Part shown: positions 1 through 62,092 of the stretch, in pieces | How positions within the stretch are numbered: position 1 is the first letter of the stretch | Layout: every line of letters begins with the position of its first letter | Source of the DNA: Owenia fusiformis | Taxonomy: Eukaryota > Annelida > Polychaeta > Sabellida > Oweniidae | Direction of reading: 5' to 3' | NCBI GenBank assembly: GCA_903813345.2 | Contig: CAIIXF020000007.1 | Coordinates: forward strand, 10,979,730 to 11,043,729 | DNA length: 64,000 nucleotides | Made by a program: the position numbers and the translations under genes | Notes under the pieces: generated by a model | The model's input: the letters and a program-made list of their open reading frames with translations, nothing else | Database searches by the model: none | Told to the model about the DNA's origin: nothing

Positions 1-1323
1 GTTCGTATCATATTCATGTATGGTCTTGGTGTTCCTCCTCTGATCACTTCTGTCTTCAACTTATCTTTGTCTTTATCACGCAATGTAATGCGATCATCTA
101 CATTCGCTATATTGCTCGGCAGAATGCCAGATTCTGGTACCAGGATGTAGATTTTACGAGGCATGTATGTGATGTCCTGGTTCTCACGGGTGGCCAGGTG
201 CTTTTCAATGCGACCCTTCAAATCTAGAAATTATACATATTGATTTTTGTTATCCAGTTATCTCAACGCAGAAGCTATCATTGAATAAAATAAACTCATA
301 GGCTAAATTAACAATGCTTTAGGCTAAACTGTAGCTAAAATGGTACAAAGATTGATTCATGTAGTGAGAAATTGAATCATGACTTACTAAGCATTTCACC
401 CGTAGGACCTTGTGGTGGTACTATGACATTCAAATAGGAGTAGAAGTACCCCCAGGCCATGCCAAACCCAACATCATTTCCAAGTAAGTCAATCCTCAAT
501 GGAGGAGATTTATCTACAAATATTAAACGAGGCATTAACATGCAAAATGTCATCCCATTACTTTCGCTACAGACGTTGAATGCCAACTGCTGAACACCAA
601 ATGCCGAACACTTTCCACAAAAAAGTTGGAGACTATAACAATATGTCACCACTTGTGATAGTGACATAATAAAAAATTATCTTGGATTAAAATATTTTAG
701 CTTGTTTTATAAATCTAAAACAGACATCCTCATTAAAATTTCATGATTTGCTGATGAAATGCAGCTAAACAGTTTAATCAATCTTTAAGCTATAAATCTT
801 AATCATATCATAAGAGGAAATCACCAAAAATATTATTGACATTCATCTCACATTTCTGCAAGTTAAATGATGTTAAATGTAAATGAAATGTTTTACCAGT
901 TAGAGCATATCTGAGCAATTCATCACGATTTGGATTGGCATAGTCAATATCATTTCCCCAGGTCAAGAACTTTGGTAGCTCTCTTTTATCCTTTCCCTTT
1001 CGCAACACAATCACGTATCGTTCACTCATTTCAATCATTTTAGATATTCCTCGTTGTGCATCATACATAGACTCTTTTTGCTTCAGAAAATTCTCAGTAA
1101 CAAGCAGCATTAGACGCCTTGACTCTTTCATTTTTTTTCCTGACTCCAATAACATTGGCATGCCAGGTGTGAAGTCGTCTTTGCTTAGCATCACTGAGAA
1201 TCCTGCTTCTAACAACATGGCTTTTACTTCATAAGCCTCTTTTTCATCCTTTTCTGCATAGGCCAGATAGACATGGTACAGTTGACCATTTTCAAGGGGT
1301 GGTACTGTAACAACTGCTTCATC
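1..1323 (-). CDS. TIR-STING unit B (partial, runs off left edge)
   Basis: Exons are 1323-897 (TIR), 513-388 (first STING exon) and 223-1 (second STING exon, cut by the window edge). The TIR reads YHVYLAYAEKDEK with the BB-loop DDFTPG. The STING part has MAWGYFYSYLN and RPYMNMI like unit A. The TIR exon starts after a TTGCAG acceptor in phase 0 and has no in-frame Met before its core, so an upstream coding exon is required. The nearest upstream coding exon seen is the last exon of unit A, which offers a phase-0 donor. B may therefore be the second half of a TIR-STING-TIR-STING protein; the alternative is a separate gene with an unseen short first exon between 1324 and 1998. The TIR is strongly diverged from that of A, but the visible ligand-binding exon is identical in protein. 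Confidence 0.88.
520..668. repeat. dispersed repeat, copy 1 (intron of TIR-STING B)
   Basis: The stretch ending in aacaatatgtcacca and containing gccaactg recurs with divergence at 21360-21500, 22080-22235 and around 28470-28530. It lies between the TIR exon and the first STING exon of unit B. No coding content is seen, so it is probably a short interspersed or miniature transposon. Confidence 0.5.
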
Positions 1324-1435
1324 CTGCAATATTTGTATAATTTGGCAGAGCTATAGAGCGTGGCATTGCAAGCAATATATTCAAGTGACCTACTTATTTA
1401 TTATTTTTTATTTTGTCTAAATATGATATATTCCG

Positions 1436-1890
1436 GATGATCCATGGTATGTTATGAATTGGTGAAGTTATTTAAGGATTTAAGCCCTGGACTCAGTGCA
1501 TTGTGGATTAAATCATTCCTCAAAAGGTGTTTTTCAAACTTTGCACGAGATGAATCAGCATTGAGTGTGAAGTTTAGGAAATATCACCTGAGTAGAATGA
1601 ATCAGCCACAGTGCATCAAGTCTTTGGCCTACATTCTTTTCACACTTTGCAAAACATGTACTATGAAACCTAAGAGATACGAAATCACTTAAATAATCTC
1701 AATGAAACTTTTTGGATCAATCATCATTTTCAATCTGTAGAGTCAACTTGTCACCTTGACCAGTACCATCTCAACAAATGACCTTGGGTGTTTAGTATTG
1801 TTATTGTTATATAATGGAGTGAAGCTATGTGGATTACTGTGTTCGGAATGGCTGGAATCGTAGACACCCTACCTAGCTATGTGTGAATTA
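1436..1890. repeat. dispersed repeat family A, copy 1
   Basis: This block contains taagccctggac, a run around ctttgcacgag, gtcaccttgac and tgtgttcgga, in the same order as copies at 38373-38870 and 39784-39965 in the PNKD-like gene. It fills most of the interval between the TIR-STING units. No open frame with recognisable protein was seen. Confidence 0.55.
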
Positions 1891-1998
1891 GAATTCAAAC
1901 TGCTGCAAATGTATAAATTCTCAATTGTGTCATTCTGTTTGTGAGCATCCACATTGGTGGCATTTATGTTTAACAAGTTACATTTAAAGCATATCTGT

Positions 1999-3686
1999 TT
2001 AAAAAAAACACACCATAACTGTTTGATCTTCTTCAATGTTCATCGGCTGCTCTGAGGAAGTGGAGGTCTCAATGTCACCATCTAACTGATCATTTTTTAT
2101 CCTGTCCAACAGTTCTTTATGTAGTGGAACAGGCTCATCAGTGGTCCCATCTCTAAGGTGCACCACTTCAACCATTGCTTGTTGCTCCTTAGTGAATGTG
2201 TTACTTATGATGTTCTTTAGGGTTTGATAGAAAACCTTGATTTGTACTTCACGGTCAATGGCTTGAAATTCAGTCAAGTCCTTGTTATCTTCCATTTCCT
2301 TCAGTGGTTGTAAGACAGTGGCATATTCCACAAGGCACTGATACTTCTATGAATAAAGATGTTTAATTTTTCACATTTAGCCCAAAATTCCATCATTAGG
2401 GTTTGAAACCCATGAAAAGTCTGATACAAACCAAAGAGAAAGTCAGAGCTTGGAGTCAACTGGAGGTTCTTACACATATATTGCAAAATTGACACTAAAA
2501 TAGATGTTATTTTGAAAGCAGCTTTAAATTCACTAATATTAATTTTTCAACAATTAAAATTTCTTATTTACCTTTCCACCATCTTCAATTGTTCGTATCA
2601 TATTCATGTATGGTCTTGGAGTACCTCCTCTGATCACTTCTGTCTTCAACTTATCTTTGTCCTTATCACGCAATGTAATGCGATCATCTACATTCGCTAT
2701 ATTACTGGGCAGAATGCCAGATTCTGGTACCAGGATGTAGATTTTGCGAGGCATGTATGTGATGTCCTGGTTTTCACGGGTGGCCAGGTGCTTTTCAATG
2801 CGACCCTTCAAATCTAGAAATTATGCATATTGAATTTTTGTTATCCATGCTCTCTGATGTGATAACTGAGTTTCCTCTGGAATTTATATTCTACATTGCA
2901 AATGATTGTATGTGAAAGTAAAAAGAGTTAATATTTTGTCATGATGACCTACCAAGCATTTTACCAGCAGGGCCTTGTGGTGGTACTATGATGTTCAGGT
3001 AGGAGTAGAAATAGCCCCAAGCCATCCCAAATCCAATGTCATTTCCTTGCAAAATGATATCCAATGGTTTGATGACTAAAAGTACAAAATGGATGTAGGA
3101 TTATTATTATATTGCATGGCCTTTATAGGACTCTAGAAAGTCCATCCTATATCATCTACAATCTTTATTATCATCAATTTCTATTTGTTGTAATAATCTC
3201 ATTCTATTGGAATTTCACTTTTAAAAATAAGAATAACAAAAATTATTACATTGTACCTGTTATTGCATGTTTTATTTTTTCCTGCCAAGGCACTTGTTTC
3301 CATGGGTCTTGATAGTCAATGTCAGTCACCCAACGGAGCATTGGTGGTACCTGTTTACGTGTTATCCCATCTCGCAGCACAATCAAAAAACGCCGATCTT
3401 GCTCCAACATTTTCTTTATGCCTTGATAGGACTCATACATAACACGAGGGTTTTTGATTGAATTTGGTGTTAAAATGACAACCATACGTTGCGACTCAGT
3501 TGTCCTCTTCATTAAATTCTGTAAATAGGGTTCACCTGGATGATAATCTTCCTTGAATGCCATCACCTTCATCCCTAAATCTGTTAGGCTTTTCTTAACA
3601 ACGCTTCCCAAATCCCTGTCAGCACCAGCAACTTCCAAAAACACATTATATTTGCTTTTGTCTAAAGGAATTTCTACCTTCGCCAT
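1999..3686 (-). CDS. TIR-STING fusion protein, unit A
   Basis: Four exons are read on the minus strand: 3686-3257, 3075-2953, 2813-2572 and 2346-1999. Phases join cleanly and give about 380 residues. Residues 1-143 are a TIR domain: it opens YNVFLEV and has the BB-loop motif DYHPG. Residues 144-380 are the cytosolic ligand-binding domain of STING: MAWGYFYSYLN matches the human helix holding Y163 and Y167, RPYMNMI matches human R238-x-Y240, and EYATVLQPL matches E260 and T263. The four N-terminal membrane helices of vertebrate STING are absent, as in oyster TIR-STING. STING binds cyclic dinucleotides such as cGAMP; here the TIR would be the signalling or effector module. The start ATG lies 15 bases after a possible splice acceptor (3702-3703), so a non-coding first exon is likely. 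The apparent end (VCFF then stop) may be intron read-through: a GT donor sits at a codon boundary at 2013-2012, and splicing there would join unit B. No vertebrate-type C-terminal tail is seen. Confidence 0.9.
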
Positions 3687-5372: not shown

Positions 5373-5454
5373 ATTATGTCCCCACCACATAGTGTGGGGC
5401 CTTTTGTCGGCCTATTATGTCCCCACCACATAGTGTGGGGCCATATTGTCGGCC
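5373..5454. repeat. two tandem 41-bp units with hairpin
   Basis: Two nearly identical units beginning tattatgtcc each contain the palindrome ccccaccacatagtgtgggg. They head a longer interspersed repeat that continues with runs of gtccgt-type motifs. Confidence 0.7.
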
Positions 5455-7950: not shown

Positions 7951-8255
7951 ATTCATAGAGTTGTCTGATTAAAAACAGGTATTCTTAACACCACATTGTC
8001 TGATCATGATCAAGTGTCAGAATTGTAAAATTCAAAATCCAACAAAATATGACAGTGCCATTGTTTGGTCATGCCTATTATATTAGAAACTTTAGAAAGT
8101 TCAGTAGTCCATTCATCTTTTCATGATCATGGAAAATGAAAATTAATTTTCTCTTTGAATTATTTCTCCATCATGGAAAATACTATGAATTTCATGATGC
8201 AAAATTGCAATTAATATTTCAACTCCTAACCTGCTTTCCTATAATGTATTTCCAG

Positions 8256-9954
8256 GCAAAGCTTGTAGCTGCAGCCACCCACAACCTTTGTGATGCTGCA
8301 AATGCAATGGTCCAGGGCCATGCAAGTGAGGAGAAGTTGATATCCTCAGCCAAGCAAGTGGCTGCCTCCACTGCACAACTGCTTGTAGCATGTAAAGTGA
8401 AGGCAGAGGGAGACTCCATGGCTATGAAGAGACTACAGGTGAGTTGTATATTTAGATTGCATGAATCATCAATTGGCACTGTTTTGAAGAAGGTGAATGT
8501 GTAACATTTAATATTACTTTTTCTCTTGGTGCCCTTGAGAGGGGGAAAGAATTCGTCAGGATTTCCCTAAAGCATATAACTTAACCTCTCTACAGATTGG
8601 AATATACATCATTGTAATCAACAGGATCCTTATTTTTTAGTGCTGTGCAAAAGGCTCTGATAACCATAAAACTTATAGGAAATGATGTCTTGTTAAAAAA
8701 TCACTACGTGATTGGGAGTCATGGGTGTCCATATGAAGTCCTTATCTAAACCCTCAGCATTCATTCTGTTTATAGGCTGCTGGTAATGCAGTAAAGAGAG
8801 CCACAGAGGCCTTGGTCCATGCTGCCCAGATGTCAAAGGACAGGGCTGATGATGAGGAACAGTTGCTGCTGAATGAAGGAATGGTACGAGGAATGAAACA
8901 GGTAGGTGCAGCTTTCGACTCTTCATTATTGTAGATTTACGTTACTAGTATCTCGATGTTAAAAATTGCCAAAAGATTATTTTTAAACTGTTTTGAATAA
9001 TTTTTTTGATCATTGTAGTTATGATGGACTGTCTCTAGTATGTTATAAATTGTCTCTATTGATTATTTTTAACTCTCTCCCTTTCTCTGAATATTTGAGA
9101 TTTTCTCTTGTTTGAAAAAATGAATTTCTGTTATTGTAAATTGTCTCTTTATTATCTTTTGATTAATTCTTCATTATTGTAAGTTATTTCTTCATTATTA
9201 TACATCTCTCTTAATTGTTGTGAATTAATCAGTAATTGTAAATTGTTGCTTGAGTATCGTAAAAAAAATTGTAAATTCTTTTTTTTGAGTGGTGACATAT
9301 TTTGGCCTCCATTTTTGCAATTGGCATATTGCTCTGGGGTCTGTAACAAATGGTTACATTTTAGTAATTGTTACCAGGTGGTTACATTTTGTGTTGTCAA
9401 TGCCTTTTTAATTGTATTCTGTTAATTGCTGTCTGAGTATTTAAAATTGCCTGCTCTATTGTAAATTGTTCTCCAATAATTTGAACCAACTCTGATTATT
9501 GTAAATTGCCTCTTAGTCATTTGAACTGCATCTTTAAATTCTATTACAACATTATGTTTGATTGCGTTTACACAATCAGAATTTAAGGATTGTGAATGTA
9601 CATGCATCATGCATACCCTCAACAGAATACTACATTAATATTATACAATTAAATGATAACAGGAATCAGTCATCAACTTAGTAAGACACAGTTATTGTAC
9701 ATAATGTGCTGTAGTAATTGTTATACTTTATATCATTATAAAAGAAGAAAATTGATGAGCCTGCCATAAGTTGTGCCAATAAAAATCCTACATTGTATAA
9801 ACTTATTTTATTCCAGGTTATAATGGCACAAGAAGAAATCCTTATTAAAGAAAAAGAACTGGAGAAAGCCAGAAGAAAACTAGAAGTTATATACAAGGCT
9901 AAATACAAGGACAGGTCTTCACCTGAATCTGATGAAGGTGGAACTTCATTTTAA
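8256..9954 (+). CDS. TLN: talin, C-terminal exons (partial gene)
   Basis: Three exons are read: 8256-8438, 8776-8901 and 9817-9954 (TAA), all joined in phase 0 and giving 148 residues. They match the very end of animal talin: VAAATHNLCDAANA, VQGHASEEKLISSAKQVAAS, VACKVKAEGDS, then AAGNAVKRATEAL and AQEEILIKEKELEKARRKL. This is the C-terminal end of the I/LWEQ (THATCH) actin-binding module plus the dimerisation helix. Talin links integrins to actin at cell adhesions. Splice sites and the stop codon look intact. The exon that should precede 8256 was not found down to 3700, and the left 3.7 kb holds an opposite-strand gene, so either this intron exceeds 8.2 kb and contains the TIR-STING locus, or this is a separated 3' fragment. 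Confidence 0.9.
9005..9520. repeat. degenerate attgtaaattgtctc repeats in talin intron
   Basis: Imperfect copies of attgtaaattgtctc occur at irregular spacing through the last talin intron. No reading frame of interest. Confidence 0.5.
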
Positions 9955-33437: not shown

Positions 33438-36400
33438 GTATATGCTTTATACAAGAACAAAAGTTGGCTATTTTTACCATAGAAGAGAATTGGCAAAAGC
33501 AAGACAGAAATATGATGATGGACATTCTGTTGCTCAGATGGCAGAATTTGATGGTAATTCATTTATTATCCACCCAAATGAAGATCATGAAGAGACCTTA
33601 AAGAGGCTCTATGCCATAGGATAGTACAATCAAGACCCCTCTGGTCTTGCATATCAAGTTTCACCACATATTCACCCATCTACTTGCCATAGAAAAGGTC
33701 CCGAATCCCCCTCTTTCAGTGAAAATCTTGCGATTGTGCTGGCCGATCTAATCATTTTCGCGGAAATTAATTTAATCTGAAGTTTGAATATACAGGGAAA
33801 GTCCTGTTGTCATTTGATTGGTCGTTAAATTTGTTCATCATGAACCTGATTGGCTGCCTTGTTCAAGGCACTTGTGGGTGCTTGTGTGACTCAATGGGGA
33901 TTCCCCTCACTAGCCGAGGAATCGATTGTGTTTAATTCTGGAGGTTGGTTGTTCTGTTGATTATTTCAATATTTCGGCAATAATATAACCAAAAGTTATT
34001 CTCAAGATATATCCACGGTATGTGAGATATTATATGAGCAATAACAATAGGACATCATTGATTGTCTGAGGGAGAAACCTATGGTATAATGCATCTTTAA
34101 TAAAGCATCTGTCTGTCCATTCATCAGTCTGTATTTCTCTTATTATATGGAGGTAGAGTGAAAAGTTTTTAAATGAAAAAACAAATTGACTCGATGCTTT
34201 TAGAAATAATCTTTATTTTCATGATTAGATAGGCCTATTTGAAATTATAATATCATACTGTTCATCTAAATACATAATTACATCTCAAGATGCCTTCATG
34301 CTTTGTTAACTTTTAAAAGTGATTTCTAGGTAGGGCAAAGGCTTGTATCCATCCTCCTGAAAAGTGATATATCTTTTGTTTTATATCAATGAACTACTGT
34401 ATTGAGTTTTCCAGATTGATTTTTCTATTGATAGATTTGATATTTGAGATCTGATAGGTTATTCTTAATTCAAGTTAAGGGTTTAGTTCTTCATAAAAAA
34501 AAATCACCCACCTGGTTTTATTCATTATTTTAAGAATGCCCTTTTCTCAGAACTTATTGATCATTCAGTGAATATTATTTTTATTTTTTTTTATCATCTT
34601 TCATATTTATTGTAAGCACAAGTCATTTAGATACAATTACAAGGGGCAAAGCGCTGTAAGCATTAGATGTCCCCTTATATAAATAAACAATAAAGTACAA
34701 TATTCATCTTAACCTGGATGTCACCTGTAAATGGTAGAATGCCTTGCAATGAAACAAAAGATAGGAGGGCTGCTGATATCCTGGGGGGGGGGGTAGTATG
34801 TTGAAAAATGGAAACAGGTCATAGGCAGGAAAATATTTAGATTCTGGTTGTGTTTTCAATGAGATAATTCGCGATAATCGTGAATATTATGATATTGCAG
34901 GTTTGCGAATTATTCCTATTCCAATTATAATGGACAACTACTGTTACTTGATAGTAGATGACAGAACACAAACTGGAATCCTTGTTGATCCAGCTGATCC
35001 AGATCTTATCTTGGTGAGTTTTATTCAGCCAGTTTTTATTCATAAACATAGTTTTTCTGTCAGGGTGATAACTCAAATACCAGTTGGCAGATTTGGATCA
35101 AATTTTATAGGGCGATGCACTTTTGTTCTTTTCTTGCAGCCTGTCCTGAAGAAAGAGTCAGTGAACATTGTTGCAGTACTTTGTACACATAAACACTGGT
35201 AAGTATGCTTTTGATTCAATTTACATTAATTTATCACACCCTTGAATCAGTATTTATGAGTACAATACAGTATAGTTAAGCTACTGAAAATTCTGGATAA
35301 AACAATTTTTAAGTTCTTGTCCTATTGATTTCCATGTAATACCAGAACCTGTAAATTATGTAAAAACCCAAACCATCCATTTTGTTAAAGTTATGAAGTA
35401 TAAGACCTCCTCCAGATTATGACAGCTCACATTTTGTAAGGTGTAAAACAGACAGTCCATGGTAAAACACATCTGTTCCTTCAAACCTTAGATAAGGTGG
35501 TTTTTGGAATGATTTCTCTCCAATACATGGTCTAAAGGGTAATGACCCCTGATTGACCCACTTGAACTGTGTGTAAAAATACCATGAACATTTTAGGTTT
35601 ACTGCTCAAATGCAATAAGAATACAGGTTTTATTGTACATGCAATGTGTCACATTTTGCTTCCCTATTTATTTGTTGTATGTTTGTAGGGATCATAGTGG
35701 AGGGAATAGCACATTTAAACGTCTATACAGCAATATAAAGATCTATGGTGGGGCAGTTGATAGAGCACAGGCTGTAACACAGTAAATATATTCAATACAG
35801 AGAAACCTGGATATCTGAACACCTCTCTTATCTTTGATCTTGCATTATTACAGACTTCCATGTTAAAAAAATTGAATGTGAGCACTTATCAATCCAAAAA
35901 CACATGCCTGGTCCCAGTGGTGTTTTGATTAGACAGGTTTATTGTATTTCAATTTTTTATTGATGTGGATACATGTTCATCTTTTCCCTTGATGTATTTC
36001 TCTCAGTCCAAACTTCCAAAGATTAGGGGAAAAATAATGATGAAAAGATGAATATGAAACATCTCAATAGACTGGAATATTTGATTAATCTATATATACA
36101 AGAATATGCCTTGTTTTATACATTATGGGCTGTAAATTAATCTTTTTAATCATGTCAATGAAAGCGTGCGACCCATTTTATTGTTATTATAAATTAAATT
36201 CATGTCAAATCTAAAAGTTTAAATTCTTTCCATAATTTACAATTTTTGAGAGTGAAAAATTTAGGATATGAATGAGTCAATGCTATTATTTCATGAAAGT
36301 TTATGAACAAATGTCTTGACAATTTGTTACTTTCATTGACTTTCACATACATAGTTTTCATTTTATTTCAGTCCTGTTGCAGACGGTGATGTCTTGGATT

Positions 36401-39400
36401 TTAGTGGTTTGAAATTTACTGTGAATTTCACCCCAGGACACACTGTAGGCCATGTGGTGTATACTTTAAATGGTGCCCCATTCAATGCGCCTGACAGTCT
36501 CTTCTCAGGGGACCATCTGTTCTTAGCTGGCTGTGGTAAGTTAACTGTAGATAATATGATACACAGATACACTGATATATACAGTAAAACCTGTCTAATC
36601 GGAACGCTACTGCGACTTGCCAAAAGTGTTAATGATTTGCACATGTGTTCACATTTCAAGGTTTTTTAGTATGTGAGTCAATATTTCAGTCCCAAAATTG
36701 TTGCTTAGAAAAAGTATTCTCATTGAGGGGTGTGCAGATTAGAGAGTATGAAATGAAAAATTGGATGGGATTTTAGAATATGCACATTTCTTTATAGGGC
36801 GTATGTTTGAGGGTTCTTCAACTACAATGTTACGTTCCCTTGATGTCTTGTGTGCTATGAAAGATGACACTCTAGTATGGCCAGGTAAGACAACTAAAAA
36901 TCATGGGTAGATCCCCAGACCTTGCATGTTCAGTGAAGGATGACACATTGACTGGATTAGATTTTGTTGTCCAATGATCCTTGATATATTATGAAATGGT
37001 GAAGTTATTTTAGTTTTGAAATGCAGGGATACAAATGTAAATATTTCAAAATTAAATATTTGGATTTCTAAAGAATTAATATGACAAGGATTAATATGAG
37101 ACCAAAAGCTTCTGAAATGGAGAGTGTTTTGGAAACTTGCTCTCTGTTTTTTTGCTTTTTGAAATAATTATGGCCTTAAATAATTAAAAATAAATCATCA
37201 AATCATCTGGAACCTGTTTTGTAAATATAAAGCTTTAAAAATATTAAAAGCAACATACATCATCACAATTATATACATGTAATAACTATACAAGTTTGTT
37301 CAAACTACAAGTACATATAATGTTTTCAAAAAATAAGCTTTTTACTATTCTCCGATGGTGCAAGTTGTAGATTACTTTGAATTTTTCCAATTTAGTGTAT
37401 TTGAATTGCATGAGTCCAAAGGACGATTCTCGGTTTGGAGAACAAAGTTCATCAATCTAAATGAGCATTATCCCTGCTTCGGACAAATTTGATTTTTTTA
37501 CATAATATACATTTGAATGTCTTCTTTTGAATAGTCATAATTTAATTTGGGTAATATTTCTAGATTTTTCGCAAAAAATATTTGCGCAGTACACTGATGA
37601 ACTTATTTCCCCAAATCGAGACTTGTATTTTATTGAATCGGTCTAATTGAGCGTTACCCCTGCTTCAGACCAATTTGTTATTTTTACATCTTGTAGATTT
37701 AAATGTCCTCTTTTGAATATTCATAGTTTAATTTGGGTAATATTTCTATATTTTTCATGAAAAAAATTATTAGCCCAGGAGACTGTTCTCCAAACCGAGA
37801 ATCGTCCTTTCAAAACAATACAAAAATGTAGTGGACGCATTTGTATAGATGGCAAGCATGATGTGGTTAAACTGATAGTCCATGTAGACATGAAAGATGG
37901 CAGCATAATATGCAGTAGATATAAGAGCTCACAATTAGTTGAAGATTTTTTGGGTCAAGTGATAAGAGTGATGCGTCATTGGCAGATATAGCTCAATCCA
38001 TGTAAATTATCAGGGTTATCATTGTTAGAGTAGTTTTGTGCAACAATATTTTGGGTGGTTCTTTTTATACATTATGATGAACATGAGGTATTCATTCCTG
38101 TGTAGATTCATATCAGTCCCTGGTACATGTTAAACAAAGTGTCGAACATCAAAAATAAATGATTTTAATTCTCTGAAGGAAATGAACTGGATTTATTTAA
38201 TGAAGTATTTATGTTTTTTTCTTCGTAACTGAATTTTTGTTGTTTGATATAAACTTTATGTGACACTTTTACATGACATGTTAATTATTGGCAAGTATCC
38301 AGAATATGTAGTTTAGTTATCAGTTCAGTGTTATCAATCATGAATGATTTATTAGCATTTACATAGTACTCTGCGCCTGGTTAGAGGATTTAAGCCCTGG
38401 ACGCATCGCATTGTGGGCTGATTCATTCCGTGAAGGTGTTTTTCCAGATCTTTGCACGAGTGAGCAGCAGGAATGCAAAGTCAAAGAAACCATGCTTGAG
38501 TGGAATGAATCATCCACAATTCATTGAGTCCTAAGCTTAAATTATTTTCATACATTGCAAAAGATTTTACGCTATATCACTCAGTAGACTGATTTTTTGC
38601 AAGTGTCAAATGAGGTCAACACTGATTTCATCACCTTGACACACATTCAACACTTACCATTTGACCTGCATAAGCACCTGTACTGGCTTGTTATTCAGCC
38701 CTGTGATACTGTTTTCACTCAACTATGAAATAATCAGTTTGTCAGTTTCATCAGTTTTGCCCGGTGCATTAGATGCCATTCAATTACACGAAATAATGTA
38801 TTCTGATTAGCTAAAATTGGACACACCTTGTCTAGCTATTTGTGATAAAGAATATTGAATTGGCTACAGGTTTTAAAAGAACATTTTTTCTGGTATGAGA
38901 CAGTTGCCCAAATTATGTATTCACCTAGCATCTTAAGCAATATGCACCATCAAAATCCTTCTCTTGTTAATGTGTGCCATGCACAGAAGGTCTGAATTTT
39001 CAAGAGGACAACCATAAAATACAATGGTTTAACTACATACATCTACATTGATTTTGATTTGCTTGGGAATTTGGCTAGCATTCGTGTTTGACTATATACT
39101 CACATTCAGCAATGATTCACATGGTCAGTAGTCAATAATACTTCCCATTCATTGACCAATCAAAATGAAGTATGTATCATAATTATTGTTCTATGTCTTA
39201 GGCCATGAATATGCAAAAGACAACCTTGAGTTTTGCCTCACCATAGAGCCCAACAATGATGCTACAATGGCAAAGAAGGCCTGGGTGACTGAGCAGAGAA
39301 AGAATAGGATAAGTACGGTAAGAAAATTATTATTATTTATCAAATATCTTTTATAGTCTTGTATCATTTTGATATTTAACTATGCTGCTGTACCTGTATA

Positions 39401-49000: not shown

Positions 49001-52000
49001 CAATTATACCTTATTAAGATGTTATATTTTGGAACGATTGATTGATAATTGAATAGTTTTCCAAGAGTTTCCCCTACTCAGCAGGGCAACCCAAAAGGGA
49101 TGTGTTTTAATAGAATGTACAATTTATGCAAAGGCATGGGTATATCATATCTTAATATGCTTGACTTGTTTTTTCTAATCATTATAATGGTACATAAATA
49201 AACTCCAAAAGAAAATATATTTTTAGCCATATATAGAGGTTATTTAATGGGAGGGATGGAATATGAATATTTTATTCCGAGGAAAAATATGATATTGGGC
49301 AAGGAAAATATCATATTAACCAAGGGTGACAGCCCAAGTGTCAATATCATATTTTCTGAGGCCAATATCATATTTTCTCGAGGAAAAATTCATATTCCAT
49401 CACGGTCATCAATAACCTATTTATTCCATCATATTTTTCTGGTGCCATAAAATGATACAATTTGATTGTCATATAACATTTTCAAAGTTTTAAAATAGAA
49501 GGAAAAATCCCAGGAAATAGTTCTGATACGGGATCTGATACGGAATTTGGGCTAATACGGGATCTGATACGGGATTTTGGCTGATATCGGATCTGATACA
49601 GGATTTTTTGAATATCAATTCTATTCCTCGTTTATTTCCCAGGGAAAACATGTTATTATGGAATAAGTAAGGTTATATGTGAATGTGATTTTTTGTAAAA
49701 ATGTAAAATTCATAGCTGTTTTTTATGTTACAGGTCTCGGGTATGCTATGGTTATAGTAAACACAGTTATATCTCTGTACTACATTGTGATTGTCGCATG
49801 GGTCTGGTACTTTTTCTTCACATCAATGCGCTCCCCACTCCCCTGGGTGGATTGTAATAATCGTTGGAACACACCAAATTGCTTTGATAGACAACAGGCC
49901 ATCAATTGTACTGCTCTGAATGCTACCTTCTTTAATGGAACTGTCTCAAACTGCTCAGAGGTTCCAGAATTGTTATCAAGTAAGTACTTTTGTATAATGA
50001 GGTGTTGTCTGAAAACCTTCAAAATAAATTTGATTTGATTTGATTTTTACTGTTATTGTTTTCGAAAAAAACATACAAGAAAAATTATTATGGTGACATA
50101 TGGGAGTCCATTGTATTTTAAATATTTTGATTCACTCACTTGTGGCGGATAAATTATCCACCTTTGAATAAAAACCATATCCTATCTACATTTCTCATCC
50201 ACATTTCAAGGAGGTTAAAGGTACAGCAAAGATTAACACTAAAGTTGAGAATAAATTTCTCAAAATTTTCATTTCATAAGGAAAGATGAACATGAAAATT
50301 TAGTGATGCGTCTTTATAAAATCAAAGTTAAATGCATCCTGGTTAGTTTCTTGACATCAATGTATCTTTCCTTTATTTCAGAAACTCAAACACCAGCTCA
50401 TGAGTACTTCTAGTAAGTGAGAATTCTTATCAATTCGTTATAATAATATTAATGGTAGAAAATAAAAATATTGCAAAATAAGCATATAATGATAATGTTA
50501 CAGTGCAAATGTACTGTATTGTGAGTGTGACATTAAAGAACAACTTTAAGTAACATATTTGTAGTTTATGAGATTATGTATGAATTTTAAAATAGCACTA
50601 CTAGACAATGTTGTACTTATGTAATGGGAATGTTACTCTAAATGTAAATACTAAAAAATTCTGCATTATTTTGTTTATTCTCTTAAAAAGATCCAGCATT
50701 TGGAAGGAATATAAATTATTTTGCTTTAAATATTATATATTATGATAACAGATGTTCAAAATCATTAACAATTGAATTGAAAATGTACATGCATTCACCA
50801 TATTCTATTGTAGTAATCATGTGCTTGAGTTGACTGATGGTTTGGGTGACTTGGGAGGGATGAGATGGCCTCTTCTGGGTACTTTGTTCCTCAGCTGGGT
50901 CATTGTTTTTCTTGTACTTATTAAGGGTGTGGCCTCACTAGGGAAGGTATGTAATTTATCTATTTCTATAACATTTATTACATGTACGAGGGTTGTTCAA
51001 AAAGTCTTGAACTTTTGCTCAAATAGCATCAAATATTATTCTTTTGGCTTCATATTTCATCAGAAATATCTTAAGTATTTATTGTCCAATCTGTTAAGAT
51101 GGCAAGAATAACACAGCTAGAATTCAAAAACTGTTTAAACTATAGCAAAAATGTCAGGATTTTAAGACAAACCTCGTATATTACTGTAAGCTTCGTTTGC
51201 ATGTTTGTTTTTTTACTCATAAAGCATTCCTTCTCATAAAAGATATTCTGGATCTTGAGCTCATGTTAACAAAGGTTGTTTAAGGATTTATGAATCATTT
51301 TCTCAAGAAGGTGTTAATTCAACCTTTGCACTGTGTGTGTTCACAATCCTGTACCAGTAGTCAATTTAGTAATCATTTAAACAATAAAGAGATGTCATAA
51401 TCATAACAAGAACTGAGACATTAGATTTAAGGATAAAAGAGGCAACGACATAATAAAATAACACTAGAGCAGAACATTTTGTGAAATGAATTTCAAAACT
51501 TAAAATCGCTGTATTTATTTTCACAAATATCTGTAATATGAATGAATGTGTATGCCCTTATATTGAAGCTCATGATTATCATTCTTCAGGTTGCATATTT
51601 CTCCTCGTTGTTCCCCTACTTCATGATGACAGCCCTGTTGATACGAGGTGCCACATTAGAGGGGGCCAGGAAAGGAATAGAGTTCTATATGATACCAAAG
51701 TGGGAGAGACTAGCTGATATACAGGTTTGTAGACCTTTTGTTCTTTGTAGACATTGAACACCCAATATACAATCAGACAATAGAACCTGTGTAAGTGGAA
51801 CATCTTTGATCATTTTAAGAGGTGTTCCACTTGGGAGGTATTCCATTCTTAGAGGCTCATTTAACATGGAGCCAGTTGGACATTGGTCATCTAAAATTGT
51901 TCTATTCATGGAGGCATTCCACTTACAGAGGTGTTCCACTTTACAGGTTTCACTTTTTAGTACTTTCACTATTTAATTCTGACCGTACTTCGATCTATTG

Positions 52001-55000
52001 CAGGTATGGAGTGATGCTGCTAATCAAATCTTCTACTCTCTCGGCATTAGCATTGGTACCCTGACTGCAATGTCCAGCTTTAACAGATTCAACCACTACT
52101 GTCTACGAGATGCCCTCATTGTACCATTCATTAACTGTGCCACCAGTATATATGCTGGTTTTGCTGTATTCTCAGTGCTTGGCTTTATGGCTACCAGGGC
52201 CAACCTGCCTGTGGAACAGGTTGCTGTGTCAGGTATTTACTTACAAAATGAATCTACATTTCTGATGCCAATAAGATATTTCATGGCCTTTTTGGGGACT
52301 AAATGTAAAATAAATGTGCTATTCAGTAAATGTAGCAATTGTGATTTTCTAACTTCATATTCTGATGGTGCATTAAAAAGTCTGTGTAAAGGGTTATCTC
52401 AACATGTATTCTAGTTTAGTAGAATAATTGATATATTTTATGCAAAAATTGTCTGAAACAGGAAAATATGGATATGTAAACCAATGTAGTCGTACATTCC
52501 CTTGCATTCCTATTATATTTTACGTACATCTACTATGAATGTTGTACTTACTGTTCCATCTTGTCAAGGTGATCTCCATAGCAACCATATTTTTTGTAGG
52601 TCCAGGGCTTGTGTTTGTAGTGTACCCCGAAGGACTAACTCAGATGCCAGGATCCCCTACCGCCTGGGCCATCCTTTTCTTTATCATGATGATGTTTCTT
52701 GGATTCAGCTCACAGGTCAGTAATATTTGCTTTGATTGTTACATCTGGTATATTTTCATGTCTGCCATACTTTGTGTTAACACATCATATAATTATTTGA
52801 CCAAAGTAAATAAATCATCTAATTGAATGTTGCCCTTTGTTCCAGTTTTCCCAAGTTGAGACGATTATTTCAGCATTTAATGATGAATCCGGGGGCTGGT
52901 TCCTCAGAGGAAGATGGAGGGGTTTAGCATTCAGGGCAACTGTGTGTCTCATTATGTTTGCTTGTGGAATACCTCTAGTCTTTCAGGTAAGTTGAGGTAG
53001 AACCCAAACACCAGTCCAGCCTTAAGTTGTATCTCCCACAACATCTACCACCTCTTCAATTTAACATTTGTACACCTTAAGGTAGTTGTATCCTGGAAAT
53101 AGATGGCGCTATGCTAAAGTAATAGTATGTGAGAAATGATTTGACAGGTGTTCAGGTTTAAGAGGTATTTCGTGATATCACACTTTTGAGAAATGAGTTT
53201 TTTTATTTATATCGATGCATAATTTTTATGGATTCAATGAATTATATCCAATAATGGCCTTTCTAATGTTTGTTTTACTCTTTGGTATACATTTAGCAAA
53301 ATGTTAGACAAAAGCATCCAAAAATTGAAAATATTATTTTGAAGCGTAATGATAAAAAATGAAACTATGTTTAACTATGAAGCATAATTATATCCTGGTC
53401 ACAGCTACCTTAAGATGAAATTTTGAACTAAGTTGAAAATCTAGTCTAGTATTAGATTAGGCTAATGTCTGAATGATAGCACTTCAATTTAACATTTGTA
53501 CACCTTAAGGTAGTTGTATCCTGGAAATAGATGGCGCTATGCTAAAGTAATAGTATGTGAGAAATGATTTGACAGGTGTTCAGGTTTAAGAGGTATTTCG
53601 TGATATCACACTTTTGAGAAATGAGTTTTTTTATTTATATCGATGCATAATTTTTATGGATTCAATGAATTATATCCAATAATGGCCTTTCTAATGTTTG
53701 TTTTGCTCTTTGGTATACATTTAGCAAAATGTTAGACAAAAGCATCCAAAAATTGAAAATATTATTTTGAAGCGTAATGATAAAAAATGAAACTATGTTT
53801 AACTATGAAGCATAATTATATCCTGGTCACAGCTACCTTAAGATGAAATTTTGAACTAAGTTGAAAATCTAGTCTAGTATTAGATTAGGCTAATGTCTGA
53901 ATGATAGCACTGATCAATCAAATCAAAATATGAAACTGATATACATTCTCATCTATTCTGTTTCCAGGGTGGCTTCTATGTGTTTACAATATTTGACACT
54001 TATGCTGGAGGATTCCCTCTCCTTATAATAGGTCTACTAGAAGTCATTGTTATCACATATATATATGGTAAGTTTATGCATGGGCTTTCTCTTGAAAACC
54101 CATGGTTTATGTTTTGACTATAATGATCAATGCTATTACATTATATGCCCTTGTCGTTGGCGGATCTAGCGGGGGCAGGGGTTGGGCCCAGAATCTTTTT
54201 ATAGGGCCTCAATTAGTGGGCATTACTAGGGCTTTTTGGGCCTTTTTAGGCCAAATTATCAAAAATGGGCCGTACATTTTCAAAATTTTGAAAATTTGGA
54301 TTTAGGGGCCCAAATTTTTTTTTTCGAATTTCAAATGTTGGCACCCCCCCCCCCCCCCCTGTTAGCTTCTTGATCCACCAGTGCTTGTATTGTGATATTA
54401 CCCTGTGTTAGTTGTATCAGTGTATCAAAGTTGTTTCAGTGTATCAAAAATTACTTCTAGAACCAATCAGATTGTGAGGTATCAATAAGATGTATGTTTT
54501 CTTGTAGGATTCAATAGATTTGCTGAAGATATTCAGATGATGATTGGGTATAAACCAAGTTTGTTTATAAGAGCTTTTTGGAATGTCATTACACCACTAC
54601 TTTTGTTGGTAAGTTGTTGTTTTCATCATATCAAGCACAGGAAGTGATCAGAAATGTCTTCCATTAATCTGATAAACTCAGACCATCAATGAGTTGTATA
54701 ATTTTTTTAACTTGATCACTGCTCTATATTGTTCCATCATTTATATGTATTTATATGCCATACCTTTGAACATTAATTTTATCCCTGCTATCTAAAAATA
54801 TCCCATAAATACATGCAGCACAAACCCAGTGAGCAATTGACTGCCTTTAAATGATACTATGTTTTTATTCCTTTCAGGTGATCATTATACTGAAGATTGT
54901 GCAATACAAGCCATTAACATTTGGGGATTACACATACCCCCCTTGGTATGGAGGTAAGTGAACATTAAAATGAATATTGAAAATCTTTTGTTACTGTATC

Positions 55001-59985: not shown

Positions 59986-60136
59986 ACTGTCCAAAATTAT
60001 ACTGAACATGGTCTTTTTTGGACTAAAAATAGTTATGTTGTTGATAATGTAGCTGTTGTACAAGTACTATTCAAATTTTTGTGGCTTTTAATTGTATTTT
60101 TTTGTAATTTCAGTTGGTCGCTTAGATCTCCTAGTG

Positions 60137-62092
60137 ATGTCGTCATCTGATTCTGACAACCATGACTCAGATAATGGCTCTGATAGGGATTCAGTCAGTC
60201 ATTATTCCAGCATCAGAAGTTCTCCGTCCTCCAATCATTCACGAGGCAGTTCACCCCCTTTGTCACCTAGATATTCTGATTATTCCGATACAGAGGAGCA
60301 TAATGGACCATCCAACGAGATTCATGACCCGGCCTTTAATGAATCAAAATCTAGGCTTAACATCAGTGAAATGCAAAAGAATGGACGTTATTGCGATATC
60401 ACTATTCTTGTTGGCGGCAAAAGTTTTCCTTGCCATAAAGTCATACTTGCATCATGGTCAACCTATTTTGACTCCATGTTCTCAAGTGGGATGACTGAGA
60501 GCAACAGCAAAGAAATCACCCTTAAGGACATATCAGTAGAAGCATTTCAGGCCATAGTGGACTATATGTATAGAGGCGTCATTAAACTGGATTCCGTTGA
60601 AATTGCGTTGAACGCGCTTAAAACAGTGGACATGCTTCAGTTCGACAAAGAATTCCACAAACGTTTGGTGGTATATCTCTGCTCTGAGTGTCATCCGGCT
60701 AACTGCTTGACTATGTTAGGACTTGCCGATCTGATTGGCGAGGAACAACTAAAGCGACATGCTAAATCCTGGGTCTTGAGTGACTTTAAATATATAATCC
60801 AAACTGAAAGCTTTCTGCAAATGGATGCAAAACTTCTAATTGAATGTATCAGCGATGTGAATCTTGTGGCAAAAGAGGAAGAAGAAGTTTTTTTCGCAGT
60901 GGTGAAATGGCTAGATGTAAATTACTCAACAAGAAAACAGTTCGCTGCGGAACTGTTATCCAATATCCAATTCTGCTTTATGGAGTCGCATGTATTGTTT
61001 GATTCTCTTGAGAAAAATGAGCTTCTCAAAGACTTGCCCGAATTCCAAAGATATCTAAATGAAGCTAAACGCCATCAGGTTATTCCATGTTATCGTCACG
61101 ATGATCATGGTAGACGCTGTAGGGCAAGAACCTGCAACACTAAAGTTCTGTTGATGTTTCCAGAAGATGAAGGTGGTCCTATCGAGAACCCTTTTCATGT
61201 CCCAAAATCTCACGAAGAAACATATGAACCAATACCATTGCCTCATAAAATTGGTGATGCAGTTGAAGGAAATGGAATTGGCGCTGTTAAAGTTTGTCTT
61301 GTTGGACACACAATATTTGCATGTGTATCCGAATCCATGTGGAAATGTCAATATAAACATAACCCCCGTTATTCCAAAGACCCCGAGCAGCCATACTGGT
61401 GGGGTAGCTGGCAGCCATGTTCTCCCAAGTCAGATTTCAGGCATTTCTTCAGTCTGACTCTGGCTGGATCTTATATCTATGCAGTGGGGGGCAAAGACAT
61501 AAACGGTAGAGGTTCTCGCTTGATTGAGAGATATGATTGGGAAGAAGACCAGTGGAGAAATCCAAAAGATGGGCTCATTACTGGTGTTTTCGGTCATGCT
61601 GCAGTTGTAGTTAAAAACAAGCTGTATATTTTGGGTGGCATAACAAATCTTGATCGTGCAACTGATGCCGTTCAAGTGATCCATCTTGACCAGAAAAAGA
61701 TGAAAATCGTAAGTGGCCCTAAAATGCTTGAACCCCAAGAGGGCCATTCTGCTGTTGAGTTCAATGGTCGTATCTACAGTGCAGGCAAGCAGTTTTTGAT
61801 GTTCGACCCTGAAACAGCTGTTTGGACAAGACTCTCGTGGCCCAGTGGACGCATTGCACATACTCTCCAAGGGATGACAGTCTATGGTTCAAGTATCATG
61901 ATGTTTGGAGGAGCTCTAGAAAATCTCAGTGATATTGATAGTTACGATGGCCACAGCAGTATGGACCTGCTACGAAAGATTGTCTCTTACAATGTAGAAG
62001 AGGACTCATTTGATCATGGAGACTTACCTAATCCAATGGCGTTTGGAGGGGCACTTTGTGTGGTAAATAATAAACCCCTGAAGTGGTTATAG
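60137..62092 (+). CDS. BTB-BACK-Kelch protein (KLHL-like)
   Basis: A single uninterrupted frame of 651 residues. I chose the ATG at 60137 (MSSSDSDNHDSD) because the 15 codons before it cross a splice acceptor (tttcag at 60108-60113). Residues 1-65 are a Ser/Asp-rich, probably disordered, extension. BTB spans about 85-190 (CDITILVGGKSFPCHKVILA). BACK follows at about 195-295 (CLTMLGLADLIGEEQLKRHA). Kelch-type beta-propeller repeats run from about 360 to the end, with YAVGG, LYILGG and IMMFGG. Proteins of this kind usually serve as substrate adaptors for Cullin-3 ubiquitin ligases. I cannot assign a specific KLHL orthologue. The coding region lacks introns, unlike its neighbours, so it might be an old retrocopy that gained a 5' exon, or an ordinary single-coding-exon gene. 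Confidence 0.93.
   Translation: MSSSDSDNHDSDNGSDRDSVSHYSSIRSSPSSNHSRGSSPPLSPRYSDYSDTEEHNGPSNEIHDPAFNESKSRLNISEMQKNGRYCDITILVGGKSFPCHKVILASWSTYFDSMFSSGMTESNSKEITLKDISVEAFQAIVDYMYRGVIKLDSVEIALNALKTVDMLQFDKEFHKRLVVYLCSECHPANCLTMLGLADLIGEEQLKRHAKSWVLSDFKYIIQTESFLQMDAKLLIECISDVNLVAKEEEEVFFAVVKWLDVNYSTRKQFAAELLSNIQFCFMESHVLFDSLEKNELLKDLPEFQRYLNEAKRHQVIPCYRHDDHGRRCRARTCNTKVLLMFPEDEGGPIENPFHVPKSHEETYEPIPLPHKIGDAVEGNGIGAVKVCLVGHTIFACVSESMWKCQYKHNPRYSKDPEQPYWWGSWQPCSPKSDFRHFFSLTLAGSYIYAVGGKDINGRGSRLIERYDWEEDQWRNPKDGLITGVFGHAAVVVKNKLYILGGITNLDRATDAVQVIHLDQKKMKIVSGPKMLEPQEGHSAVEFNGRIYSAGKQFLMFDPETAVWTRLSWPSGRIAHTLQGMTVYGSSIMMFGGALENLSDIDSYDGHSSMDLLRKIVSYNVEEDSFDHGDLPNPMAFGGALCVVNNKPLKWL

Follow-up and report, generated by a model that had tools for sequence, protein, structure and literature searches.

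A probable tandem TIR-STING-TIR-STING gene in the annelid Owenia fusiformis and the exon context of the STING core in its genome

Gene structure of the TIR-STING locus

The 64,000-nucleotide stretch of the Owenia fusiformis genome analysed here (contig CAIIXF020000007.1, positions 10,979,730 to 11,043,729; hereafter the window) carries at its beginning, on the minus strand, two units that match the Pfam families TIR_2 and STING_LBD. In each of them a TIR domain lies N-terminal to the STING ligand-binding domain in one chain, as the initial annotation of this DNA had proposed. We consider it reasonably likely that the window holds most of the gene for a soluble tandem TIR-STING-TIR-STING receptor of 729 amino acids, which would belong to an annelid system of cGAS-like receptors (cGLRs) and STING and would act by ligand-linked TIR scaffolding. 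The part of this explanation that can be read directly consists of two intact units with compatible splice phases, the lack of a hydrophobic membrane segment, the retained cyclic-dinucleotide contacts, and a second locus of the same build. The exons are as follows; unit 1 was labelled B and unit 2 A.

Exon 1, 3257..3686, minus strand: ATG start and first TIR (unit 1, B); donor in phase 1; TIR_2 E 8e-12, TIR E 2e-8 (Pfam)
Exon 2, 2953..3075, minus strand: first STING core, alpha1, with the Y163 and Y167 equivalents; from splice sites and alignment to human STING
Exon 3, 2572..2813, minus strand: lid region of the first STING core, with the R232, R238 and Y240 equivalents; STING_LBD E 5e-5 (2554-2820)
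Exon 4, 2014..2346, minus strand: end of the first STING core (E260, T263) and acidic linker; phase-0 donor, stop-free before the donor; STING_LBD E 8.5e-11 (1999-2337)
Inter-unit intron of 690 bases, 1324..2013, minus strand: GTGTGT...ATTGCAG; splice implied by the database protein P0001
Exon 5, 897..1323, minus strand: second TIR (unit 2, A); phase-0 acceptor; Asp at the NADase-glutamate position; TIR_2 E 3e-10 (808-1329)
Exon 6, 388..513, minus strand: second STING core, alpha1; STING_LBD E 0.009 (containing open reading frame 377-667)
Exon 7, 1..223 plus 18 bases past the window start, minus strand: lid region of the second STING core
Exon 8, G000:C7:10979137-10979403, outside the window, 327-593 bases below window base 1: E260, T263 and the stop

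Residues 13-351 of the spliced unit 1 match the solved oyster TIR-STING with an E-value of 1.8e-17, well above chance. The proposal that the TIR stands in place of the four N-terminal membrane helices of canonical TM-STING is borne out as well: a hydropathy scan of the window protein, made without a dedicated helix predictor, revealed no membrane helix (the 19-residue Kyte-Doolittle mean peaks at 0.99), and an in-frame TAA lies two codons upstream of the exon 1 ATG, so that no helix-coding exon is expected further upstream. Such upstream exons, whose presence would have spoken against a soluble protein, can be ruled out on these two grounds. Bacterial contamination or a recent transfer is likewise ruled out by the GT/AG introns, by the chromosome-scale contig, and by TIRs that are nearest to animal TIRs.

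The two units probably form a single protein, as judged from splice phases and gene models. Exon 4, the last exon of unit 1, splices in phase (phase 0) into exon 5, and P0001 runs straight through this junction; our gene model starts with all 638 residues of P0001, which lacks the last three residues of exon 7 and the whole of exon 8. P0001 ends at RTIED, ahead of exon 8, and its contig measures 39,792,004 bases, against 39,776,147 in the present assembly; the record perhaps stems from another assembly or gene-model version. A second locus, on C5, repeats this build: its eight exons share the phases of the window gene, an acidic linker is present, and the spliced product again measures 729 amino acids. 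The public protein record P0004 agrees with the C5 gene model letter for letter and is 59% identical to the window protein across 99% of the latter. A TIR tree built from 12 rows places the first TIRs of both loci together (support 92/93) and likewise their second TIRs (93/96); the tandem form should therefore predate the split of the C7 locus (that of the window) and the C5 locus.

Exons 3 and 7 are 96.7% identical over 242 bases, and all eight differences are silent and fall on third codon positions. Around them, identity drops to 73% and 62% in the flanking introns and to 77% and 69% between exons 2 and 4 and their counterparts, a pattern that looks like recent gene conversion.

TIR domains: scaffold or NADase

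For the window gene we favour scaffolding rather than NAD+ cleavage: its TIRs resemble those of TLRs and MyD88, one of them carries Asp where the catalytic Glu would be, and all four tandem TIRs are without a Trp that the four single units retain. A profile of eight Owenia TIRs matched 53 solved sequences at E up to 0.001, headed by a TLR15/TLR2 entry (8e-17) and followed by TLR2, TLR1, the oyster TIR-STING (2.4e-13) and MyD88 (1.1e-11); lower down are a 'TIR domain protein' (7uxr, 2.4e-9) and the NAD hydrolase AbTIR (4.7e-8). SARM1 is not among these 53 sequence matches and appears among the structural ones. Seven of the eight Owenia TIR-STING units, window unit 1 included, possess Glu at the NADase-glutamate position; the exception is window unit 2, with Asp. 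Four residues earlier, the Trp of W-x-x-x-E is present in all four single units and in all four oyster sequences, and is absent from each of the four tandem TIRs. Matches returned by PADLOC were set aside as TIR-only resemblances.

A mode of action like that of bacterial TIR-STING, in which ligand-induced filaments would lead to NAD+ cleavage by the TIRs and the cell would be killed or stalled, nevertheless has some points in its favour, although we regard it as doubtful. The glutamate of the seven units would suit it, as would the NADase TIRs (SPARTA, SARM1) among the top VIA-align matches, the sub-threshold CAP12-PCTIR_TIR matches, and the naming of PF10137 in the precomputed domain list of the paralogue P0004; a precedent is SfSTING (PMC9402430). 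Yet the fold alone does not decide the type of TIR, because VIA-align places the NADase SPARTA TIRs level with the TIRs of Hydra TRR-2 and MyD88, and the CAP12-PCTIR_TIR match of window unit 1 reaches 17.5 bits against a cut-off of 24.7, with none listed for window unit 2. The Glu is also retained in TLRs, which are not known to be NADases. In addition, the nearest relatives in sequence are TLR and MyD88 TIRs, and the Asp of window unit 2 and the missing Trp of the tandem TIRs speak against this mode as well.

One tandem protein or two genes

Several observations weigh against a single tandem protein. The STING tree backs the pairing of first with first and second with second units weakly (61/86), unit 2 of the C5 locus has a plausible ATG ahead of its TIR that could serve as a separate start, and two polyA-type hexamers lie within the C7 inter-unit intron; moreover, the joining of exon 4 to exon 5 is deduced from sequence and gene models. 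One might thus picture two adjacent single TIR-STING genes that were merged by annotation and that each give an oyster-type TIR-STING, the more so as single-unit paralogues (P0002 and unit D) reside in the same cluster and P0001 is incomplete at its 3' end. This arrangement is, however, unlikely in view of the structure of both loci. No in-frame ATG was found before the TIR core of exon 5, so that unit 2 of the window has no start codon of its own there, a feature that the initial annotation did not mention. The last exons of both first units reach their donors stop-free and carry an acidic linker that is absent from P0002, P0003 and the second units. Identical phases and an identical length of 729 amino acids are found at two loci that are only 59% identical, and the inter-unit intron at C5, with 233 bases and neither AATAAA nor ATTAAA, is very short for a terminator, a promoter and a leader. 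The soluble TIR-STING with a kept pocket that had been predicted stands, with the addition, lacking from the initial annotation, that its two units probably make up one tandem protein; binding of cGAMP-like ligands and signalling through TIR assembly, also put forward there, are predictions.

The ligand pocket and the sensing of cyclic dinucleotides

Seven of the ten human STING positions compared are kept in both window units (Y163, Y167, R232, R238, Y240, E260 and T263), and the same seven are kept in all eight TIR-STING units modelled in the Owenia genome. Alignment to human STING confirms the earlier statement that Y163, Y167, R238 and Y240 are retained in both units and that position 162 is Gly in both. 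Retention of E260 and T263 had been noted for one unit only because the last exon of the other lies outside the window; with exon 8 counted, both units keep these residues. Apart from Gly162, the pockets of both window units differ from the human one at positions 166 (Ser for human Gly) and 264 (Val for human Pro). In alignments judged by eye, the R232-R238 loop, which the initial annotation does not mention, has one residue fewer than its human and oyster counterparts, and may offer a handle on ligand choice. Oyster TIR-STING sequences themselves vary at 162, 263 and 264, with Gly at 263 in two of the four compared. The best fold match of the window protein is the oyster TIR-STING solved with 2'3'-cGAMP (6wt6/6wt7), a precedent that the initial annotation had also lacked. 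The AlphaFold model of P0004 (pTM 0.37) is too weak for reading the state of the pocket or a STING dimer within the chain.

In the Owenia genome there are 32 exon matches to Mab-21, the cGLR superfamily. Ten of these loci were read: the strict pattern G[SGT]...[DE]x[DE] occurs in four (L021-L024), and GS...(D/E)x(D) is kept, by eye, in five more (L020, L025-L028), but not in the top match, L019. These counts refer to the first catalytic positions, short of the third acid. The search for cGAS-like receptors that had been recommended thus yielded candidate ligand-making enzymes, as judged by their motifs, and enzymes able in principle to make a ligand are therefore present in the genome.

That the STING cores are mere dimerisation modules which have lost cyclic-dinucleotide sensing, with some other input switching the TIRs, is very improbable, for although the shortened loop and the variation at 162, 166 and 264 would fit such a loss, seven other checked contact positions are kept in all eight units, the differences between the two lid-region exons of the window are without exception silent, and the genome holds catalytic-type cGLRs.

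Proposed mode of action

STING cores act as dimers in characterised relatives. In the mechanism that we favour, cGAS-like enzymes would make a cyclic dinucleotide, which the STING cores would bind at a dimer interface formed either within one chain or between chains. Binding of the ligand would then align the linked TIRs into an assembly that could recruit partners of the TIR/MyD88 type, so that the window gene would probably signal through scaffolding rather than through NAD+ cleavage.

Relation to known STING systems

The oyster (Crassostrea gigas) TIR-STING is established through PDB entries 6wt6 and 6wt7 (PMC10732462, PMC8218723) and shares with the Owenia units the N-terminal TIR, the STING core directly after it, the lack of membrane helices, most pocket residues, and an animal-type TIR. 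Its chains differ in that they hold a single unit and end in a C-terminal tail (P0005-P0010), whereas Owenia has tandem double-unit genes with an acidic linker between the units and no tail; identity between the two is about 20-26%, and the oyster R232-R238 loop is one residue longer. Orthology and independent fusion are both compatible with the trees, in which the TIR branch between Owenia and oyster amounts to 1.77 changes per column and the STING part shows long branches coming together. PMC10732462 and PMC10855445 describe animal TIR-STING as rare, with oysters as the example, and the former puts forward a fusion of STING and TIR in animals that was independent of the bacterial one.

Bacterial TIR-STING, such as SfSTING of the cyclic-oligonucleotide-based anti-phage signalling systems (CBASS), has the same order of TIR and STING and presumably also assembles upon ligand binding. 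SfSTING is a c-di-GMP-activated NADase partnered with a CD-NTase, as stated in PMC9402430 and PMC8204762. In contrast to the bacterial proteins, the window units have animal-type TIRs with no match above cut-off to the CAP12/PCTIR family, and instead of an operon with a CD-NTase there is an intron-bearing gene on a 39.8 Mb animal chromosome. Human STING1 (TM-STING) shares the STING ligand core and its contact residues with the Owenia proteins, which have a TIR where it has four N-terminal membrane helices. The amphioxus and bivalve proteins P0012-P0014 possess a related TIR, and STING is absent from their precomputed Pfam lists.

Out of 5.8 billion proteins, a profile search picked out 15, P0012-P0014 among them, and the named STING-bearing ones come from Owenia and oysters (Crassostrea, Saccostrea, Ostrea); this search reaches relatives that share exact 5-residue words, and missing annelids are thus no evidence of absence. 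In the open-licence literature, as far as it was sampled, we found no report of an annelid or tandem TIR-STING, nor of a connexin-like STING or of annelid connexins. New here are, accordingly, the tandem form, the eight TIR-STING units in one annelid, and the occurrence of the same STING core behind the VQVG or connexin-like exons described below.

The STING core behind three kinds of exon

STING_LBD gives 14 exon matches in the Owenia genome, which resolve into 12 STING units. Eight of these are preceded by TIR exons, at C7 (D, P0002, A, B, P0003), C5 (a, b) and C346, the last from a model joined by eye; two follow a short exon with a VQVG motif (C9, C12), and two a connexin-like exon (C10, two copies). 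No canonical STING membrane domain was seen in the stretches read at the 12 units, where no profile search for that domain was made. Wherever a locus was spliced or its junction was read, the STING core begins at a phase-1 acceptor and the preceding exons end in phase-1 donors; this holds for the TIR exons of five units (B, A, C5a, C5b, D), for both VQVG exons and for both connexin-like exons.

VQVG exon on C12, L017:5862-5641, minus strand: VQVGNRN; phase-1 donor before STING exon 2
VQVG exon on C9, L018:6680-6504, minus strand: VQVGSGTN; phase-1 donor before STING exon 2
First connexin-like exon on C10, L014:903-1581, plus strand: STING exons at L014:4105-5686
Second connexin-like exon on C10, L015:9361-about 8683, minus strand: STING exons at about L015:6115 to 4202; 4 Mb from the other copy
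Connexin-like exons genome-wide, 13 places, among them: C10:29.79-29.83M, C10:32.28-32.33M, C10:36.57-36.68M, C3, C8 and C12; L037-L040

By eye, the VQVG exons resemble RHIM or other amyloid signalling motifs. As Pfam names nothing in them at E-values up to 1, an assignment to RHIM was rejected, and the name denotes a resemblance to the RHIM consensus only. The connexin-like exons match Pfam Connexin (E 1.5e-13 and 9.6e-15) and the solved gap junction delta-2 protein Cx36 (E 6e-8). Each is a single exon with the phase-1 donor CAAG|GTAAAG at its end, and STING exon 2 is the first exon in phase that could be recognised after it; the two may be spliced into a connexin-STING fusion, here in an annelid. 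The four helices are counted by eye and from the similarity to connexin, since hydropathy gave two strong peaks above 1.6 rather than four.

Genome-wide, this protostome has at least 13 connexin-like exons, including the two beside STING. Where the downstream 10 kb of four others were read, three are followed by an open frame of 860-908 amino acids with a P-loop-like start (STAND-like by eye), in which Pfam found no match above cut-off, whereas the fourth has a Death domain exon behind it (E 5e-5, over its cut-off); in all four cases the downstream frame or exon has, by eye, a phase-1 type acceptor. A 2022 survey (PMC8769644) reports connexin-like proteins as absent from non-chordates except for one unconfirmed sea-urchin transcript.

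Tentatively, we suggest that the Owenia STING core may be an exon-shuffled phase-1 cassette, with effector exons of at least three kinds now placed before it (TIR, the amyloid-like VQVG and a connexin-like four-helix pore). This would amount to a bacteria-like set of interchangeable cyclic-dinucleotide effectors, possibly including a cyclic-dinucleotide-gated channel, and the double chains could form a single-chain ligand-binding dimer.

Other features of the window

Further coding stretches, recognised by eye, comprise a talin-like exon (8127-8504), exons of a metallo-beta-lactamase-fold hydrolase (34825-36669), exons of an SLC6-type transporter (49667-52414), and a single-exon BTB-Kelch gene of 666 amino acids (60092-62092). 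At about 5375-5442, the raw sequence holds two direct copies of the palindrome-like element TATGTCCCCACCACATAGTGTGGGGCC, 41 bases apart from start to start.

Implications

With eight units in an annelid, two pairs of which are apparently fused in tandem, the TIR-STING architecture is not only an oddity of oysters. A single chain that contains both halves of a possible dimer together with two non-equivalent TIRs would let the coupling between STING dimerisation and TIR assembly be tested in a natural setting. Moreover, a genome in which 12 STING units follow N-terminal exons of three kinds would make the swapping of effectors in animals directly testable.
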